Part shown: in pieces, positions 1,533 to 61,771 of the stretch | Position numbering within the stretch: the first letter of the stretch is position 1 | Layout: every line of letters starts with the position of its first letter | Origin: Sorex araneus | Lineage: Eukaryota > Chordata > Mammalia > Eulipotyphla > Soricidae | Assembly (NCBI RefSeq): GCF_027595985.1 | Contig: NC_073303.1 | Coordinates: 101,758,320-101,822,319 of the forward strand | Direction: 5' to 3' | Length of the DNA stretch: 64,000 bases | Program-made: the position numbers and the translations under genes | Notes under the pieces: model-generated | What the model saw: only the letters and a program-made list of their open reading frames with translations | The model's database searches: none | Told to the model about the DNA's origin: nothing

Positions 1533-1744
1533 GAGCATTAAGTGACAGATAAAGCATTCAGATCATGAAACCCCTCCCTGGCATACCCAAAATCTTTAGT
1601 TCAGGTTTAACAAATCTCCCTAATTCATTTCTTCTCTGTTTGGGTCACCTAGTTTTGAACCCTATCCCCACTTTGCTGACTTGCATTTAAATGTAATTAT
1701 GTACCCCAGCCTATAGCTGGGTTGAACAAGAACTCATAGAAAAG

Positions 1745-2708: not shown

Positions 2709-4369
2709 GAATCTGTCACATCTAACACAGTGTCTGTTAAAATGAAAACTCAGTTGTTGAATAGGTGAAAGTTTGAGCAAGCTTACATTGGATTTGTTTC
2801 TTGTTGTATTAATTGAGCTGAGGCTGTAATTGATTGCATTTATAAAACATTGGATTTTACATCTATTGATCAGCATTTCAGTCCATGTGACATATTCAAC
2901 GTATTCCACATTTAATAATAATCCATGAAGGGCAGGTCATCTCCACTCTGTGTGGGCATAAGTATACAAGCTTTTCTGAGTCTTTAGCAGAATATTAAAT
3001 TTAAGACTGTTAAATTTAGGAATATTAAACTATTCTTTAATAGGTGAGTTCAAAGCTCAGTTCAAGTAGTGGGGATAATCTTGTCCAAACTAAGACCCCA
3101 TGAAAGGAGAAATATTTCAAAAGATATATGTTTAATAAATATGGGCAGAAAGTACATGCATGGTAGTAATTTTTGGTTTTAGAAGTTATTGATACAGATT
3201 TTTGGTTGATCTCATTAATCTACATTAAGCAGTAAATATGGAAAACAGGAAAAGCTTAAAACTTAGAGTCAGCGAATCTAACTGTGATTCCATTACCATG
3301 TGAATTTGGGAAAGAGTTTTTTAAACTCTTGTCTACTTTGATTTCTTTGTTTATAAAGCACTGCTGGTTAGTATGCAAATTCATTGAAATAATGTATATG
3401 ACATCAACTCATTGAATAAGACTCTCTCGTGAGATGTAAGAAGATGAAGTTTTTTTTTTTCTTTCCCATTACCACATCACACTATTTACATAAGATTGAC
3501 TGTTCTGTCAGTGCAGGAAAACTACAATGCCTCATGTCAGGCATTTTCAACCATTTTAATTTAAAAACGCAGTCTAGTTCATGTCTAGTCAGGTTCATGT
3601 CTAGTCTGTAATAATCAGAGCTGTGAACTTTATCCAAAAGTAGGAGTTCTCTTCCCACATCCAGGCCGTGTTACTGAGTCCACCAAATCACATCTAAGGG
3701 TCTCTGATTTTCTAGGATAGCCCACTGGACTGCATAAAATCACACACATGACTATGGCTTAGTATGCCAAAAAAAGATGGAAAGCAAAATTAGCAAAGAA
3801 AAAAATAAATGAAACAACATCAGGAAGAAATTAGAAATTAGACCCAAGTTTCCAAACATTTTCTCCTAATGGTGTTAAGCAAGATAAGATAATTTCTCCA
3901 GCAATGAAAAAGACTGCTATCTCAAAGAAAGTTATTAGTGACATGGCTATCAGGATATTTACTGGGGGCCTACACAGCGGTATCTTTTTCCTTGCATGTG
4001 CCAACATTCCAGATACCCAGAAGGAAAGCAGTGATTCAGCATATTGCTCGTGTAAGCAATTTAAAACCGGGACTATTCTGATTGGTTGGAGAGATGAGGA
4101 TTCGAAATTCCAAGGCCCCATACATAAGGCCTAACCCTTCATAAGCAAAACTTTCTCAGAACAAGCAATCATTAACTATGTTAACTAAAGGTTAGCTGCT
4201 TTCTGTGTTAAAAGGATAATTCTCTTCTAGCTTCTGTTCTTAGCTGCTTCCCAACTTGAAGCTAACCTTGGGCAGGATTGAGCAGAGGGAATAAAAGAAG
4301 AGGATTTAAAAATTTGGTTGTTAACTGCTCTGTTTTAACTTTGCCTCATTTTTGTCTCATTTTTAGCAT
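2709..4369. other. Unique sequence, no gene recognised
   Basis: AT-rich. The longest open frames (3,831-4,121 minus, 96 codons, and the opposite-strand 3,904-4,134) overlap each other, resemble no family I know and have no context; I treat them as chance. No clear repeat seen. Confidence 0.4.
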
Positions 4370-6441: not shown

Positions 6442-7249
6442 AAAGAAGGCCTTTGATTCTGTAGAGACTAAAGTGGTCATCGAAGCCCCAGCCAAACAGG
6501 GCATTCAAACTCAGTACATTAGGATCCTCCGTGAGCTGTATTACGGATTCACCACCAAGATCTCACCATTCTGCAAGGAAGTGATAATCGAAATAAAGAG
6601 AAGGGTTCGGCAGGACACAACATTTCACCGAAAATCTTCAGCGCCACCCTCAAGAACATCATTCGATGACTGGAATGGGAAGGAATGGAAGTGAAGATAG
6701 ATGGTCGGCAACTACACCACCTCCATGTCGCTGATGACATTATTCTAATAACACCAAATATCAGCCAAGCAGCATGAATGCTGACTGACTTCGACCGTGA
6801 ATGTGGAAAGGTTGAACTGCATCTGAATCTCTCGAAAACAATGTTCATGAGAAACAAACTAGTTCCTGATGTTCCATTTGTCCTCAATGAAACGAACATC
6901 TCTGAATGCAGGAGTTATGTGCACCTAAGTCAAGGACTCAACATGAAAATGACCCAGCACCTGAACTGCGCAGGAGGAAGAGAGCAGCTTAGAACGTCTT
7001 CAAGAGCGTCGAAGAAGTGGTTAAGAGGACGAAGAACTTCCAGCTCCGGGCACATCTTTTCTACTCCACCGTTCTTCCTGCACTAACATATGGCTCAGAG
7101 ACCTGGGCCCTACAAAAACAGGATAAGAACGTGATTCGGGTATCCCAAAGAGGAATGGAAAGAGCTATACTTAGAGCATCATGTCTCACTCAAGTGAGAG
7201 AAGGAATCTGGAGTTCCGACCTCCGTAAACGGTCAAGAATCAGGGATGC

Positions 7250-7464
7250 CATCATTTTCCTAAAAGTAGAGAGATGGTATTGGGAATATTTTCTGCCATG
7301 GAGGCATGGGGAGGGTGGAAAAGGAGAGGTATACTGGGGATATTGGTGGTAGGGAATGTGCACTGGTGGAGGGATGGGTGTTTGATCATTGTGTAATTGT
7401 AACCCAAACATGAAAGCTTATAACTTGCAGTGAGTCAATAAAATTTTTAAAAATTAAACAAAAA
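7250..7464 (+). mobile_element. Short L1 3' end inserted in RTE copy 1
   Basis: A 215-bp insert with gtgcactggtggagggatgg, cccaaacatgaaagcttata and gtgagtcaataaaat then an A-rich tail. It is flanked by aatcagggatgc at 7,238-7,249 and 7,465-7,476. The RTE reading resumes exactly after the second copy. Confidence 0.92.
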
Positions 7465-7790
7465 AATCAGGGATGCTATCTCATTTGCCAAGGCCTCGAA
7501 AATCAGATGAGATGGACACATAATGCGATTTAGAGATGACTGCTGGACTAGAGCTGTTGCCAACTGGATTCAAGGGGACATCAAAAGACCGTGTGGCCAC
7601 CCAGCTACGAGATAGTCAGACTTTTTTGTCAAGACTCTGAATGAATGCTTTGAGGCTCTTCGTGTTCCTGGAGTGAGCAGGCACCATTGGACTACACTAG
7701 CACATGACAGGGATGAATGAAGATGTTACTGGTGCCCGCTCGAACAAATCGAGGAACAACGGGATGACAAGTGACAAGTGATACAAGTGA

Positions 7791-13350: not shown

Positions 13351-13424
13351 CACAGCATAGTTTATGAGAATCAACTGCAAGGTTTTTTTTTTAAAAAAAC
13401 CACTGTGTACCAATAATAGATAAT

Positions 13425-14238
13425 GCCAAACATCAGCCAAGCAGCACAAATATTGGCCGACTTCAACTGCAAGTGTGGAAAGGTCGGACTGCAGCTGAAT
13501 CTCAGCAAAACGGTGTTCATGAAAAATGAACAAGTCCTGACATTCCATTTGCTCTCAACAGAACGAACATCTCCAAATGCAGCAGCTATGTGTACCTGGG
13601 TCCAGAACTCAACATGAGGAACGACTTGACACAAGAACTGCGCAGGAGGAAAAGAGCAGCGTGGAACGCCTTCAAGAGCATCGAAGAACTGGTTAAGAGG
13701 ACAAAGAACCTCTGGCTCCAGGCACATCTTTTCGACTCCACCATTCTTCCTGCACTAACATATGCCTTAGATACCTGGGCCCTACGAAAATAGGATGAGA
13801 ACACTACTAGGGTATCCCAAAGAGGAATGGAAAGAGCCATGCTAGGAGTATCACGTTTCACTCAAGTGAGAGAAGGAATCCGGAGTTCCGACCTCCGTTG
13901 ACGGTCAAGAATCAGGGACGCTGTCTCATTTGCCAAGGTGTCAAAAATAAGATGGGCCGGACATGTAATGCGATTCAGAAATGACCACTGGACTAGAGCT
14001 GTTACAGACTGAATTCCACAGGACATCAAAAGACTGCATGGCCGCCCACCAATGAGATGGTCAGACGACTTCATCAAAACCCTGAATGAACAATTTGAGG
14101 CTATTCCTGTTCCTGGAGTGAGCAGATATCATTGGGCTGCACTAGCACGTGACAGGGACAAATGGAGATGTTACTGGTGCCCGCTCGAGCAAATCAAAGA
14201 TCAACGGAAAGACAAGTGAAGTGATACAAGTGACCTTG
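13425..14238 (+). mobile_element. RTE-clade LINE, copy 2, 5'-truncated
   Basis: Second RTE copy, starting later in the polyprotein than copy 1, just after the RT catalytic region. Readable blocks in order: MPNISQAAQILADF with CGKVGLQLNLSKTVFMKN, then in another frame LGPELNMRNDLTQELRRRKR, FKSIEELVKRTKN, LFDSTILPALTYALDTWALR, SKIRWAGHVMRF and GRPPMRWSDDFIKTLNE. It ends ALARDRDKW and CYWCPLEQIKDQRK, just before a stop at 14,217-14,219. At least one frameshift near 13,590 and stops at 13,791, 13,900 and 14,010 disable it. The 3' end again runs into gtgatacaagtgac. No clean TSD was found. It is closely similar to 6,735-7,790, with the nested L1 of copy 1 absent here, which confirms that L1 as a later insertion. 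Confidence 0.9.
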
Positions 14239-14554: not shown

Positions 14555-14803
14555 AAAGCCCTATAGCATTGTAGCACTGTTGTCCCATAGTTCATCAATT
14601 TGCTCGAGCGGGCACCAGTAATGTCTCCATTGTGAGATTGTTTTTACTGTTTCTGGCATATCGAATATTGTAGCTTGCCAGGCTCTGCTATGCATGCAAT
14701 ATACTCTCTGTAGCTTGTTGGGCTCTCCGAGAGGGATGGAGGAACCAAACCTGGGTTGGCTGCTTGGAAGGCAAATGCCCTACCCACTGTGCTATCACTC
14801 CAG
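14555..14803 (-). mobile_element. SINE-B (tRNA head, RTE tail)
   Basis: Read on the minus strand: tRNA-like head (ctggagtgatagcacagtgg, cccaggtttggttcctcc), a middle with tccctctcggagagcc and gcctggcaagctac, atatgccagaaacagtaaa, and an end, ggagacattactggtgcccg then ctcgagcaaattgatgaac, that matches the RTE 3' terminus at 14,168-14,210. Confidence 0.9.
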
Positions 14804-15790
14804 TCCTCTAGAGAGAAAATGTGGATTAAATATGATTACTGGAGAATCTGAGGCATTTTCTCTTAAAACTGCTCAAAGAAACCAACTGCATTTTTCCTCC
14901 CTTAGAAATCATCCTTAGATATATATCCCCAGAGGAAAAATCTGATTGTCTTGGTCTCTGAAACATTCCCCAGTTTCATCTATGGAAATAGTCATGAGAG
15001 AATGCCACTGTGCCCACATAGTTGTAGTTGGGGTTGATCCCAGAAAAATAGTATCTGGGATTAGTGGGGTGGATGACTCAACTCTGTCTTTACAAGAATT
15101 TTTTTACTTATGAATTTTTAAGTTTTACTATCTGTATCTGTTAGGAAGGGAATGTTTTCTCTATATGAATATCATCTATGTATACTTCCTTTAACTGCTA
15201 TTTAATATGCATGAAAACATTTACCCAAGTGAAGTTTTAAACTGAAAAAAAATGGTAAAGAAAATATTAATTTTGAAGTCTATTTTCCAAAGGATCTGAG
15301 CATTCAGTAATTTCAGTCAGGCATGGTTTAACTAATACATATAGGACCCAAAAAGATCACTTATAAAAGGAGAAGCCATATGGACTCATGGTAAAATACG
15401 ACCAATAGGAAATAATTCATGGTCACTGATAAAGTTCCTTCTCTGAAGAATATTCAAGGTAAGGATCAGGTACTACTTTACAATTTACCATGAAATCTGA
15501 AAAGCAAGTGTATCAGGTTGGAACTGGGAATTATAAAATCTTCTAATGCCAAGTACTGATGTAACAGTAACTAAAGAAAGGAATTATTGTTTCTTCCTTC
15601 AGGTGTTGAGAAAAGTTTGTAGTCCTGATATGTGGATGAATTCTTCAAAATAAAAATGGCTATAAAAATAACAATTTCAGGTAATAAAGGAGAGTAAGCA
15701 TAAATGTCAAGGGAGCTTTCATATATAACAATACAGCAAATAAGAATACATAGTATGTGTGACTGTAAAACTACTTTAATTGTAAAGAAA
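14804..15790. other. Unique AT-rich sequence
   Basis: No gene or repeat recognised. Confidence 0.35.
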
Positions 15791-15794
15791 TGAA

Positions 15795-17200
15795 ACTGAG
15801 GAAAGGAAGGGAAGGGAAGGGGAGGGGAGGCGAGGGGAAAGGAGGGGAGGGGAGGTGTGGGGAGGAGTGGAGAGGTGTGGAGAGTGTGGGGAGGGGAGTT
15901 GGGGGAGGGGAGTTTTGGGGAGGGACGTAGAGTGTGGGGAGGGGAGGTGTGGGGTTGGAAGGAAAGGAAGAGAAAGGATCAAGAGAAAGGAAGAGAAGGG
16001 ATCAAGGAAAGGGAGGAGAGGAGTAGAGAGGAGCAGAGATGAGAGAGGAGGGAAGGGGAGGGGAGGGGAATAGAAGGGAGGGGAAGTGAAGGGAAGGGAG
16101 AGAGAGGAGGCGAGGGGAAGAGAAGAGAGGGGAGAGGAGAGGAGAGGAGAGGAGAGGAGAGGAGAGGAGAGGAGAGGAGAGGAGAGGAGAGGAGAGGAGA
16201 GGGGAGGGGAGGAGAGGGGAGGAGAAGAGAGGGGACAGGAGAGGAGAGGAGAGAAGAGGAGAGGAGAGGAGAGGAGAGGAGAGGAGAGGAGAGGAGAGGA
16301 GAGGAGAGGAGAGGAGAGGAGAGGAGAGGAGAGGAGAGGAGAGGGGAGGAGAGGGGAGGAGAAGAGAGGGGACAGGAGAGGAGAGGAGAGGAGAGGAGAG
16401 GAGAGGAGAGGAGAGGAGAGGAGAGGAGAGGAGAGGAGAGGAGAGGAGAGGAGAGGAGAGGGGAGGAGAGGGGAAGAGAAGAGAGGGGACAGGAGAGGAG
16501 AGGAAAGGAGAGGAGAGGAGAGGGGAGGAGAGGGGAAGAGAAGAGAGGGGACAGGAGAGGAGAGGAGAGGAGAGGAGAGGAGAGGAGAGGAGAGGAGAGG
16601 AGAGGAGAGGAGAGGAGAGGAGAGGAGAGGAGAGGGGAGGAGAGGGAAAGAGAAGAGAGGGGACAGGAGAGGAGAGGAAAGGAGAGGAGAGGAGAGGGGA
16701 GGAGAGGGGAAGAGAAGAGAGGGGACAGGAGAGGAGAGGAGAGGAGAGGAGAGGAGAGGAGAGGAGAGGAGAGGAGAGGAGAGGAGAGGAGAGGGGAGGA
16801 GAGGGGAAGAGAAGAGAGGGGACAGGAGAGGAGAGGAGAGGAGAGGAGAGGAGAGGAGAGGAGAGGAGAGGAGAGGAGAGGAGAGGAGAGGAGAGGAGAG
16901 GAGAGGAGAGGAGAGGAGAGGAGAGGAGAGGAGAGGGGAGGAGAGGGAAGTGGACGGATGAGGAGAAGGAAGTGGAGAGAAGAGGAGAGGGGAGGGGAGA
17001 GGAAGGGAGGGGAGAGGAGGGGAAGGAAGAAGAGGTGAGGAGGAGAGAGGAGAGGAGGGGATAAGAGAGGAGGGGAAGGGGAAAGAGGAGAAAGAAGAGG
17101 AGAGAGAAGAGAAGAGAGGGAGAGAGGAGAGGGGAGAGGAAGGGAGGGGAGCGCAGAGGAGGGGAGAAGAGGGGAGAGGAGGGAAAGAGAGAGGAGGAGA
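15795..17200. repeat. 1.4-kb polypurine array, (GGAGA)n with higher-order units
   Basis: The plus strand is almost pure G/A throughout. Core pentamer is ggaga. Variant markers 'gacagg' occur at 16,234, 16,371, 16,488, 16,550, 16,662, 16,724 and 16,821. The 62-112-62 spacing in the middle shows that a 174-bp block was duplicated. The edges (15,795-16,130 and 16,950-17,200) are more irregular. The long open frames across it (to 428 codons) are repeat artefacts. Confidence 0.97.
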
Positions 17201-18022: not shown

Positions 18023-18273
18023 TTGGAGCGATAGCACAGCGGGTAGGGCCTTTGCCTTACACGTGGCTGACCCAGGTTTGATTCCTTCATCCCTCTCGGA
18101 GAGCCAGGCAAGCTACCGAGAGTATCCCACCCACATGGCAGAGCCTGGCAAGCTACCCGTGGCATACTCGATATGCCAAAAACAGTAATAAGTCTCACAA
18201 TGGAGATGTTATTGGTGCCCACTCAAGCAAATAGATGAACAACGGGATGAAGTGTGACAGTGCAGGACTACAG
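18023..18273 (+). mobile_element. SINE-B with 9-bp TSD
   Basis: Complete copy. Head ttggagcgatagcacagcgg (A-box) and caggtttgattcc (B-box); middle tccctctcggagagcc ... gcctggcaagctacccgtgg, atatgccaaaaacagtaata; tail ggagatgttattggtgccca and aacaacgggatg matching the RTE 3' end. ttcatattg flanks it at 18,014-18,022 and 18,274-18,282. Confidence 0.92.
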
Positions 18274-35825: not shown

Positions 35826-36075
35826 CAGTGTGTTAGCACAGCAGATAGAAAGGATGTTTGCCTTGCATGCGACCGACCTGGGTTCAATTCCTCTATCCCT
35901 CTCAGAGATTCCAGCAAGCTACCAAAAGTATCCCACCTGCACGGCAGAGCCTGGCAAGTTACATGTGGCATATTCGATATGCTATAAGCAGTAACAACAA
36001 GTTTCATAATGGAGACATTACTGGTGCCTTTTCAAGCAAAAATCGATGAACAAGGGTAGGACAGTGCCATAGTGC
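35826..36075 (+). mobile_element. SINE-B
   Basis: gtgttagcacagcagataga, gggttcaattcctctatccc, gcctggcaagttacatgtgg, atatgctataagcagtaaca and the RTE-like end ggagacattactggtgcc ... aatcgatgaacaagggtagg. Confidence 0.88.
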
Positions 36076-36744
36076 TACAGTGTTTTATAGTCTCACCATT
36101 TTTAGCAGCTAGTCCTTTACCTTTTACAATGTACCTCAATTATTCAGAATTTGAAATTTTTTTAAGATTATTTGGAGCTGCTGACCCATGATGATATTAG
36201 AAAAGTCTCATAAAGAGTTAGGAGTTCAAAAGTGACTAGTGTCTGGTTTTAGTCACTTGTGTGTAAATAACTTTGTGTCTCTTTTTAGCCAAATTTTCTA
36301 ACTGTCATTTTTCTAAAGATTTAATTTCCCATTTGGATATGCCAAAAGAATGCACAAGACATATACTAACCATTTCCAATCTTTGTATCACTTCTCAAGC
36401 TGTATTCTAGAGAGTTATCTAATCAACCTATCTTAAATCATATATATAATAATATTGGGTCAGAGAGGGTGAGTAACATGATTGATAATTCCACAAAGAT
36501 AACATCAGTGGAAGAGAATCTTATATTTATTCACATTTGATGAAGATTGCATTGGTTTCTTTTTAAAATATATGTTACCATTCCACCCATCATCAAAGGA
36601 CAAGTACCCTACACCATAGTCTATTGAATTCTTCCTCCCTATTCAGTTCCTCCTTGATATTCAAGAGGAGTAGGTCTTCAGATATGGATAGAATAGGTAT
36701 CAGGCAAAAACAATGTGTACCCTATTATACCCTATAAGGATATA
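36076..36744. other. Unique sequence
   Basis: Nothing firm. A weak MIR-like word (gggtcagagagggtgagtaa) lies near 36,460. Confidence 0.3.
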
Positions 36745-38429: not shown

Positions 38430-38740
38430 AAGAAGACGGATAGAAATTAGTCAAAAATTTTGAAAATACGGTTTGTTTCAAATGTCACGTACTTGTCCAG
38501 AATACATACTGACTTCTGTTTCAGGACACATCAGTATCTTACAAATACATACTCTTGGAAAGATTAATTGGTTATAAAACATTTGATCAATTAACCTCTG
38601 TTTCAAAGCAGCTTTTTTCTGCCATGTGCCAGTTAAACTTAATCAATTTTAAGTTTTTTACTTGTGGAACAGTAACTAAATGACACAGACCATATCTTCA
38701 TTTAAAACAAGCAAACAATGCCAGTACGAAAACTTGTTAT
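38427..38740. other. Unique sequence
   Basis: Nothing recognised. Confidence 0.35.
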
Positions 38741-38878
38741 AGCACTGTAGCACTGCCATCCTGTTATTCATCAATTTGCTTGAGCAGGCACCAGTAATGT
38801 CTCCATTGTGAAACTTGTTATTACTGTTTTGGGCATATCGAATACACCATGGGTATCTTGCCAGTCTCTGCTGTACAG
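38741..38878 (-). mobile_element. SINE-B 3' part
   Basis: RTE-like end (gagcaggcaccagtaatgtc complement) plus the atatcgaatacaccatggg and cttgccagtctctgctg middle; the tRNA head is missing. Confidence 0.85.
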
Positions 38879-39006: not shown

Positions 39007-39554
39007 CAAGAGAGTCTCTTGCCCGCACGCCTGGCTGTCTTCCCCAGGGCCCCTCAGACGGGATGGGCTCCAGCTTCCCTCCCTGCCCCAAGCAGAGCTC
39101 CCAGCGGCTGAAGACCGCGGGAACCCAGTCACAGCCATGCTCAAGGCCCCTCTCCACACGTTCGGACAAGCCTCACTCATGAAGGTACCAGCAGAGTAAC
39201 CCAGGTGTGTGTAATCCCATCAACGGCAACATCCAGAGACTTAAAAGCAAGCTCCTAGAAGCGATATCTTATAGCCTACTTCTTCTCTCTGGGAGAAACT
39301 CGCAAGCTACTGAGAGCTTCCTGCCCACATGGAACAGCCTCGCAAGCTTCCCATGGTGTATCCATATGCCAATGCCAGTAACCAGCTGAATCTCATTCCC
39401 CTGACCCTGAAGGAGCCTCCAATGCGGCATCATTGGGAAGGCCGAGAAGAGAGAGGCTTCTAAGATCTCGGGGATAGGATGAATGTAGAGGTTACTGAGA
39501 CCACTTGAGCCACTCGACGATCAACAGGATTTCATGATCATGATCGTGATTATG
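39007..39554 (+). mobile_element. Composite RTE-tailed non-autonomous element, 12-bp TSD
   Basis: 548 bp, no coding. 5' module: gagtctcttgcccgcacgcc, ctggctgtcttccccaggg, ggaacccagtcacagccatg, then catcaacggcaacatccag. Middle related to SINE-B: tctgggagaaactcgcaag, cctcgcaagcttcccatgg, plus a segment absent from SINE-B (ctgaccctgaaggagcctcc ... gcggcatcattgggaag). 3' end: gaatgtagaggttactgaga ... cgatcaacaggatttcatg, a diverged RTE terminus with a catgatcatgat-type tail. atggcttactta flanks it at 38,995-39,006 and 39,555-39,566. It has no tRNA head, so it is not simply a long SINE-B. Confidence 0.85.
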
Positions 39555-41501: not shown

Positions 41502-41667
41502 CTTTTTGGGACACTCCCGGCACTGCACAGGCTTAACTCCTGGCTCATGTACTCAGGAATTACTCCTGGCGGTGCTCAGGAGACCATATGGGATGCTGGG
41601 AATCGAACCCAGGTCAGCCGCATACAAGGCAAGTGCCCTACCCGCTGTGCTATCGCTCCAGCCCCCG
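41476..41667 (-). mobile_element. SINE-A with 12-bp TSD
   Basis: Nearly consensus: gctttttgggacactcccgg, gctcaggagaccatatggg, gaatcgaacccaggtcagc, gctgtgctatcgctccagc. ttctttatttta at 41,464-41,475 and 41,668-41,679. Its tail has turned into (ATT)n. Confidence 0.95.
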
Positions 41668-42061: not shown

Positions 42062-42330
42062 TGTCTTTTGGATTTTGGGGTGGTGCTCAGGGATTACTCC
42101 TGGTAGTACTAGGGAAGATCACAGAAGAACCTAGCAAGCTCCCCGTGGCATATTCCATATGCCAAATACAGTAACAATAACAGTCTTATTCCCCTGGCCC
42201 TAAAGAGAGTCTCCAGTCATTGGGAAAAACGAGTAAGGAGAGGCTGCTAAAATCTCAGGGCTGGGATGAATGAAGATGTTACTGGCGCCTACTTGAGTAA
42301 ATCGATTATCAACAGGATGACAGTGAAAGA
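42062..42330 (+). mobile_element. Composite / SINE-B-like element joined to SINE-A scrap
   Basis: Begins with an antisense SINE-A scrap (42,068-42,112: gctcagggattactcctgg), then the composite middle (agcaagctccccgtggcata, ccctggccctaaagagagtc, gtcattgggaaaaacgagta) and the RTE-like end (gaagatgttactggcgccta; cgattatcaacaggatgac). Confidence 0.8.
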
Positions 42331-45937: not shown

Positions 45938-46155
45938 TATGTAGCACTGTAGTACTGTCATCCCGTTGTTCATCAATTTGCTCAAGCGGGCACCAGTAAC
46001 GTCTCCATTGTGAGACTTGTTACTGTTTTTGGCATATCAAATACGCCACGGGTAGCTTGCCAGGCTCTGCCGTGTGGGCAGGATACTCTCAGTATCTTGC
46101 TGTGCTCTCTGAGAGGGATGGAGGAACTGAACCCAGGTCGGCCGCCTGCAAGGCA
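45938..46155 (-). mobile_element. SINE-B, head truncated
   Basis: RTE-like end complement (gtcatcccgttgttcatcaa, ctcaagcgggcaccagtaac), atatcaaatacgccacggg, cttgccaggctctgccgtg, gagagggatggaggaactga and gaacccaggtcggccg; the tRNA A-box part is lost. Confidence 0.92.
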
Positions 46156-47269: not shown

Positions 47270-47852
<583 letters not shown>

Positions 47853-48170
47853 TTTACTATTATTAGTGAATCACCGTGAGGTACAGTCACAGGCTTACAA
47901 ACGTTCGTGTTTACGTTTTAGTCATAAAATGATCAAGTACCCATCCCCCAACCAGTGTCCATTTTCCACCACTAATGGACCCAGCATTCCTCCCACCACC
48001 ACCACCCATTCCCTCTACCCCGCCCTGCCTCTGTGGCAGGGCATTCCCTTTTGCTCCCTCTCTCCTTTTGGGTGCTGTGGTTTGCAATAGAGGTATTGAG
48101 TGGCCATCATATTCGGTCTATGGGCTACTTTTGGCATGCATCTTTCATCCCGAATGGGTCCTCCCAACAT
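47853..48170 (-). mobile_element. L1 3' UTR end
   Basis: attagtgaatcaccgtgagg, cccatcccccaaccagtgtc, ccctgcctctgtggcaggg, gctgtggtttgcaatagagg and catcccgaatgggtcctcc. A possible imperfect TSD (aaagtgattt / aaaggtgattt) lies at 47,262 and 48,173. Confidence 0.88.
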
Positions 48171-59877: not shown

Positions 59878-60480
59878 GCAGAGTCTCCTGCCCCCACACC
59901 TGGCTGTCTTCACCAGAACCCCTTGGAGGGGGAGGTGTTGTGAAAGCTGAGCAGAGCCCTGGCAGCCGAAGACCTCCGGAACCCAGCCACAGCCATGCTC
60001 AAGACCACTCTCCACACGCTTGGACGAGCCTCATGCATGAAAGAACTGGCAGAGGAACCCAGGTATGCGGGACCCGAGGCTGAGATCTTCAAGCCTGCTT
60101 GGATTGGGTAGCTTTCCAGTAGCTTGGTAGTCACACCCACCAACTGCCTTTGGCGCCATGAAATCCCGTCAATGGCCAAGATCCAGAGACTATAAAACAA
60201 AGCTCACAAAAGCACGTGACCTCTTATTGTCTAGTTATCCCTCTCGGAGAACTCAGCAGGCTACAGAGAGTATACTGCCCAAACAGCAGAGCCTGGTAAG
60301 CTCCCCGTGGCGTATTCAATATGCCAAAAACAATAACAATGATGGGTCTCATTCCCTGACCCTGAAAGAGCCATCACTGTGGCACCATTGGGAAATACGA
60401 GTAAAAAGAGGCTGCTAAATTCTCAGGGCTAGGATGAATGGAGATGTTACTGGAGCCCACTTGAGAAAATCAAGCAGTTA
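59878..60480 (+). mobile_element. Composite RTE-tailed element, longer copy
   Basis: Same order as 39,007-39,554: cagagtctcctgcccccaca, cacctggctgtcttcacc, ggaacccagccacagccatg, cttggacgagcctcatgcat. It has an extra 100 bp (aggctgagatcttcaagcct ... cttggtagtcacacccacc) also found in 57,705-58,735. Then comes tccctctcggagaactcag, gcctggtaagctccccgtgg, ctgaccctgaaagagccatc, and the RTE-like end gaatggagatgttactggag. Confidence 0.85.
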
Positions 60481-61524: not shown

Positions 61525-61771
61525 GGGGCTGGAGCAATAGCACAGTGGTTGGGCGTTTGCCTTTCACTCGGCCAACCCAAGTTTGATTCCTCCACCCCTC
61601 TTGGAGAGCCTGGCAAGCTACTGAGAGTATCGAGCCCGCGCGGCAGAGCCTGGCAAGCTACCCGTGCATATTGGATATGCCAAAAACAGGAACAATAAGT
61701 CTCTCAATGAGAGATGTTACTGGTGTCCACTCAAACAAATCGATGAGCGATGGGATGACAGTGACAGTGAC
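61525..61771 (+). mobile_element. SINE-B, complete
   Basis: ggggctggagcaatagcaca, cccaagtttgattcctccac, cttggagagcctggcaagct, ggcagagcctggcaagctac, atatgccaaaaacaggaaca and the RTE-like end gagatgttactggtgtccac ... cgatgggatgacagtgac, closing in gacagt repeats. Short duplicates of attgtg flank it. Confidence 0.93.

Follow-up and report, generated by a model that had tools for sequence, protein, structure and literature searches.

In the SINE Ped-2, as reportedly described by Gogolevsky in 2008, a head is joined to two pieces of Bov-B, one from the 5' and one from the 3' part of this LINE. Mammalian SINE/LINE pairs with RTE partners are tabulated in PMC3747384 (Table 1). In that source, the Bov-B-mobilised Ped-2 and Ped-1 (springhare) and Bov-tA and Bov-A2 (ruminants) have an RTE-clade partner and a LINE-derived 3' end, like the SINE-B described here, and the table lists the BovB 5' end as the promoter part of Bov-A2. 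It also gives AfroSINEs with RTE1_LA (elephant) and SINE2-1_EC (horse), which combine a tRNA head with an RTE tail as SINE-B does, and RTE1-N1_LA (elephant), which is listed with an RTE 5' end, like the headless RTE-N of this report. The mammalian entries examined there include no shrew RTE pair.

For the common shrew, Sorex araneus, PMC6542046 describes RTE1_Sar, a highly abundant RTE reported to have been horizontally transferred between nematodes and this shrew, with the nematode-to-shrew direction favoured there without proof; the terms SINE, tRNA and non-autonomous have 0 occurrences in its main text. Among the titles and abstract starts listed in searches of open-licence literature for shrew RTE SINEs, none describes SINE-B, which Repbase or Dfam may well catalogue. 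SINE-B is a known bipartite RTE/Bov-B-type SINE architecture in a host not found among the listed pairs. Unlike the Bov-B SINEs, it resides in another host, has probably another RTE as its partner, and shares its head with a co-existing poly-A SINE, here called SINE-A.

The window is the whole 64-kb stretch of shrew DNA that was analysed (C2:101,758,320-101,822,319), and the assembly searched comprises 2.406 Gb in 65 contigs, of which C1 measures 452.7 Mb. Long purine-rich (AGGAG)n and TTTC-type arrays lie in the window at 16,005-17,196 and 47,271-47,854. Six copies named in a first-pass annotation of the window proved to be one family, as had been proposed. The SINE-B consensus, 253 bp in length, was built from 33 near-complete copies found in the window and in stretches fetched from the assembly (numbers with the prefix L). 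Against this consensus the six named copies show 82.5-89.5% identity, each reaching into the RTE 3' end:

14,564-14,806, minus strand: SINE-B, near full length, the starting element of the study (consensus 2-251, 83.6%)
18,024-18,262, plus strand: SINE-B, near full length (consensus 6-248, 88.5%)
35,857-36,079, plus strand: SINE-B, alignment beginning within the head (consensus 33; 82.5%)
38,740-38,874, minus strand: SINE-B, 5' truncated (consensus 117-251, 86.7%)
45,940-46,155, minus strand: SINE-B, aligned from consensus 35 (89.5%)
61,525-61,770, plus strand: SINE-B, full length (consensus 1-249, 86.0%)

In the consensus alignment, the last ~70 bp of the family are common to both RTE copies of the window, in agreement with the annotation:

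6,461-7,790, plus strand: RTE copy 1, beginning at least at 6,461, broken at about 7,250-7,461 by another repeat, with the same 3' end
13,420-14,238, plus strand: RTE copy 2, 5' truncated and decayed (in-frame stops), with its final stretch open to ALARDRDKWRCYWCPLEQIKDQRKDK and the stop, then a short-repeat tail

The RTE ends at 7,716-7,785 and 14,161-14,228 match the end of the SINE-B consensus at 88.7% and 85.9%. The 20-mer GGAGATGTTACTGGTGCCCG, allowing at most 3 mismatches, has 8 matches in the window against 0.01 expected, a number reached in 0 of 100 shuffles. Two matches fall in the RTE copies (7,719 and 14,164), five in named SINE-B copies (14,609 -, 18,202 +, 38,785 -, 45,987 - and 61,710 +), and the remaining one (60,440 +) in a headless element absent from the earlier annotation; the named copy at 35.8 kb has diverged too far to match the 20-mer, yet aligns to the SINE-B consensus. 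The word CTCGAGCAAAT, allowing at most 1 mismatch, has 6 window matches against 0.77 expected, reached in 1 of 100 shuffles, and is alone weaker than GGAGATGTTACTGGTGCCCG. Genome-wide, the exact 20-mer GGAGATGTTACTGGTGCCCG occurs 12,985 times and its reversed control 0 times. The different interspersed repeat within RTE copy 1, at 7,259-7,446, has ten more window matches with alignments above 90 bp.

Structurally, SINE-B consists of a tRNA-like head (consensus 1-67), an RTE 5' leader (68-182) and an RTE 3' end (183-253). The first-pass annotation had recognised the last of these parts as shared with RTE, but it overlooked the origin of the middle in the RTE 5' leader, as well as the headless deletion derivatives. 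The 67-nt head is common to SINE-B and the poly-A SINE-A, whose consensus continues past it with a different body and then an A run; 10 head-only matches of the SINE-B consensus in the window stop at 42-68, mostly at 67. One example of the sister family is:

41,599-41,665, minus strand: SINE-A head, with an A-rich tail (92.5% over 1-67)

SINE-A presumably resembles the SOR SINE of shrews. Compared with SOR, SINE-B has the same head, but RTE parts replace the SINE-A body and A tail. ARAGORN finds a tRNA-Ala in the SINE-A head and no tRNA in the SINE-B consensus, and a B-box-like GGTTCGATTCC is visible by eye in the shared head. The sole ARAGORN call in the window, a tRNA-Thr at 41,588-41,660, overlaps the SINE-A head and is most likely no real tRNA gene. 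In two SINE-B copies (L010, about 1,540-1,580, minus strand; L018, about 3,250-3,290) the head carries a tandem duplication of its initial ~20 nt.

As a check that the ~115-nt middle of SINE-B belongs to RTE and not to a neighbouring SINE, 20 RTE 5' ends were fetched, and 19 of them carry it ahead of the RTE frame, L038 being the one without it; these ends (L029-L048) are 20 of 40 scored among 4,426 candidates and were picked by leader plus frame start. Two of the 19, L032 and L034, have a SINE-A sitting in or behind the RTE leader. Against the leader of the long RTE copy L022, positions 112-176 of SINE-B are identical at 58 of 65. The leader match extends back to consensus 66-75, which is nearly the entire SINE-B middle, in 3 of the 20 (L029, L046 and L048); in the other RTE 5' ends the sequence mostly switches at ~112, to a monomer-like unit or to other sequence. 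With SINE-B 184-253 matching RTE 3' ends at 86-89%, the body is composed of a 5' piece and a 3' piece of a LINE, which is the bipartite arrangement of the Bov-B type.

Some further features of the RTE 5' ends were observed. The monomer-like unit (GATAAGTGAGGAGTAGGGAGG, at most 4 changes) lies ahead of the RTE leader in 7 of 21 (6 of the 20 fetched, plus L022); it stands in tandem in L022 (about 7,290-7,450) and in L041, and could be a repeated promoter. An inverted RTE piece lies upstream of the leader in 5 of 20 copies, near it in four (L033, L036, L037 and L047) and farther off in L043, as expected from head-to-head insertion or twin priming. A motif in 4 of 20 (L033, L037, L040 and L043) had suggested a further type of RTE leader, which was dropped because three of the four contain inverted RTE pieces.

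Both joints of SINE-B recur throughout the genome. Its junction 40-mer has 3,157 exact places and its head-body junction 25-mer 1,565, and an RTE-specific 33-mer has 340 and an RTE-N junction 32-mer 709, each with 0 for the reversed control; these patterns are of unequal length. The fetched SINE-B set (L049-L088) is the first 40 of the 3,157 places, the RTE-N set (L089-L108) the first 20 of the 709 and the RTE 3'-end set (L109-L128) the first 20 of the 340, all on C1; these three sets and the RTE 5' ends favour well-preserved copies. A less biased sample of 264 kb, made up of the window and 20 stretches of C1 of 10 kb each, contains 37 SINE-B matches that include both the body and the 3' end, and 31 of these come from the C1 stretches (200 kb); scaled up as a rough extrapolation, this gives a few hundred thousand copies genome-wide.

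The headless relatives, RTE-N, are represented in the window by three elements:

59,879-60,475, plus strand: RTE-N, headless and internally deleted, with a leader bearing a TATA-like CTATAAAA at about 60,190, the RTE 5' core, the junction and the RTE 3' end
39,011-39,530, plus strand: RTE-N, a second, more diverged copy
42,120-42,327, plus strand: RTE-N, 5' truncated, with the same long junction

In 16 of the 20 RTE-N fetched by their junction, the RTE 5' core starts at consensus 67-86, headless and with other sequence upstream; 6 of the 20 have the TATA-like leader by a loose pattern, and one, L097, begins at consensus 119; L089 and L104 are interrupted by SINE-A, as judged by eye. A tRNA-like head on the long RTE-N body was found in 1 of the 20, L103, and L018 4,307-4,620 resembles a second copy of this form. 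The short SINE-B is without ~90 nt that are found in the long bodies. Additionally, 5 of the 20 RTE 3' ends turned out to be further deletion derivatives with at least 2 other junctions (L115, L118 and L128; L116 and L127; by eye). Two RTE-N, L094 and L095, at 19.72 and 19.80 Mb of C1, have nearly identical flanks and hence represent one event, a segmental duplication and not separate insertions.

The 3' terminus separates these derivatives from the full-length element by one base. The end GACAAGTG is carried by 13 of 15 full-length RTE (2 have neither form), in contrast to 0 of 40 SINE-B, 0 of 20 RTE-N and 0 of 5 other derivatives. The end GACAGTG is found in 29 of 40 SINE-B, 14 of 20 RTE-N and 3 of 5 other derivatives, the remainder having neither form. 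Because of this one-base difference, the full-length RTE as it now stands is not precisely the element from which SINE-B derives. The terminal sequences suggest that SINE-B and the deletion derivatives, 65 elements of which none has GACAAGTG, descend from a variant of RTE as a single non-autonomous lineage. By pattern, at least 2 tail units of the AGTGNNACAGTG type occur in 14 of 40 SINE-B and of the GTGACAGTGA type in 7 of 40, the classes not being mutually exclusive; AAGTG-type tail repeats occur in 7 of 15 RTE, their units one base apart from those of SINE-B. SINE-B shows three features by which RTE-mobilised SINEs are recognised, namely a 3' end common with a LINE, no poly-A in the copies inspected, and a LINE-like short-repeat tail. 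Folding of the 3' end gave no significant RNA structure (z -0.56 and -0.02), and these values lend no support to recognition through a conserved hairpin in the RNA.

Since SINE-B has a tRNA-like start and both RTE ends, it most likely borrows the RTE copying enzyme. Judged from sequence, SINE-B is very probably a non-autonomous retrotransposon in which a tRNA-like head is fused to an internally deleted RTE, consisting of the 5' leader and the 3' end, and which is mobilised by RTE. In such a cycle, pol III would transcribe SINE-B from the tRNA-like head, the RTE reverse transcriptase would recognise its 3' end, priming would take place where the RTE endonuclease had nicked the target, and slippage during priming would produce the repeats of the tail. 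The head itself may have been acquired when the template was switched, an RTE-N RNA being left for one of SINE-A type. The order that we propose would lead from RTE to headless RTE-N, then to a head with the long body, and through the ~90-nt internal deletion to the abundant short SINE-B.

It might be supposed that L1 moves SINE-B as it does SINE-A, the RTE-derived end being a passenger. The two families have the same head, so that their transcription could be the same, and both make TSDs: a TSD score of 10 is reached by 21 of 48 SINE-B against 2 of 288 mispaired flanks, and by 24 of 46 SINE-A against 4 of 276. Dropped from this test were SINE-A starting after consensus 6, SINE-B starting at 7-14, short-ending matches and short flanks. 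Compared on these samples, however, SINE-A and SINE-B differ in target-site preference and in TSD length. At least three A in the first four target bases were found in 18 of 29 SINE-A and in only 1 of 25 SINE-B (Fisher p 7.3e-6), counting TSDs of score at least 9 and length below 22, with full and truncated SINE-B matches pooled; the A-rich starts of SINE-A may partly reflect matching of the A tail, because the match fixes where a TSD is taken to end, and an A tail can lengthen this match on the A-rich side. The median TSD is 14 bp in SINE-A and 12 bp in SINE-B (p 0.004). Moreover, the SINE-B copies inspected have no poly-A and end in a gacagt-type tail, both of which the first-pass annotation had noted, and this tail consists of repeats of the RTE-type 3' terminus. 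Neither the poly-A tail nor the TT/AAAA-like target that mark an L1-mobilised SINE was found in SINE-B. The insertions of SINE-A look L1-driven and those of SINE-B do not, which leaves mobilisation of SINE-B by L1 quite improbable; SINE-B most likely moves by another enzyme than L1, RTE's own.

Truncated elements were scored in the same manner. For matches classed as 5'-truncated SINE-B, the frequency of TSDs does not exceed that of the null (at score 10, 1 of 37 and 1 of 222, respectively; at score 8, 2 of 37 and 7 of 222), many of these matches being perhaps alignment fragments, while L051 and L057 look clean; the TSD of SINE-B L080 lies within a TG repeat and is doubtful. Truncated RTE reach a score of at least 7 in 7 of 12, against 3 of 132 in the null, and at least 9 in 3 of 12 against 1 of 132. 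These 12 come from the 20 RTE 3' ends after setting aside the 5 deletion derivatives and L109, L113 and L120, whose start is the reference edge; L114, one of the 7 counted, is TA-rich and doubtful, and the usable RTE target sites number only 6, too small a set to establish agreement with those of SINE-B. In age, SINE-B forms one narrow burst, with a median non-CpG Kimura distance to the consensus of 0.065 (quartiles 0.056-0.078, n=32), and SINE-A is broader, with a median of 0.086 (0.052-0.228, n=59). As a sign of overlap in time, nested SINE-A/SINE-B pairs were sought in the stretches fetched, and none was present in either order.

The direction of transfer between SINE-B and RTE can be read from the RTE protein. 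In RTE copy 2, the piece shared with SINE-B is in the frame of this protein and closes at its stop, directly after ALARDRDKWRCYWCPLEQIKDQRKDK; the shared 3' piece being the in-frame end of the RTE protein, the SINE took RTE sequence, and not the reverse. The first-pass annotation had read this piece as RTE 3' UTR, and this has to be corrected, for it is mostly coding sequence in the RTE frame. SINE-B took the last RTE codons together with the tail, and the RTE 3' UTR is almost absent. The RTE protein contains the reverse transcriptase domain PF00078 (E 8.2e-12 in a piece of L010; weaker on L022, at E 1.3e-4, under the cut-off), its endonuclease match is weak (E 0.054, below the cut-off), and the nearest solved chains to its reverse transcriptase include R2 and L1 proteins; the long partner element is a putative RTE-clade LINE.

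The opposite course, which the annotation had named as contrary to its proposal, is that the shared 3' segment arose in SINE-B and was later acquired by RTE. Exact SINE-B patterns do outnumber the RTE pattern, at 3,157 and 1,565 against 340 for patterns of unequal length, but the segment is the end of a reading frame, SINE-B also contains RTE leader in another, separate stretch, and headless RTE deletion derivatives carrying both parts exist, all of which makes this origin highly improbable. That SINE-B is no mobile family, but merely SINE-A heads that landed beside RTE fragments, has a practically negligible probability and is already refuted by the recurrence of the same two junctions in all those exact copies and by the TSDs that bound the whole unit, although true SINE-A insertions in RTE or RTE-N do occur (L032, L034 and L104). 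The assignment made at first sight, SINE-B to RTE and SINE-A to L1, is thus supported by the shared 3' end, the direction of transfer and the target sites, with the RTE enzyme as the presumed agent.

The RTE of this report is likened to RTE1_Sar by host and by published description, both being abundant shrew RTEs (PMC6542046), and on these grounds the partner of SINE-B is probably RTE1_Sar. A check for nematode contamination confirmed no RTE relative in viral and prokaryote contigs. With moderate confidence, we favour a history in which an RTE of a parasitic nematode (RTE1_Sar) entered a mammal, its internally deleted derivatives swapped 5' leaders, and one of them captured the promoter head of a resident L1-driven SINE to become SINE-B, the last RTE codons doubling as an RNA signal for RTE and SINE alike. 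If this is true, SINE-B would be a datable example of a SINE derived from a retrotransposon gained by horizontal transfer, alongside an L1 SINE that carries the same head. The same head with different 3' ends in one genome represents a natural experiment, in which the tail, the target site and the TSD length change with the 3' end. Should the partner indeed be RTE1_Sar, SINE-B would be younger than the nematode-shrew transfer, and could help to date that transfer and to mark shrew phylogeny.
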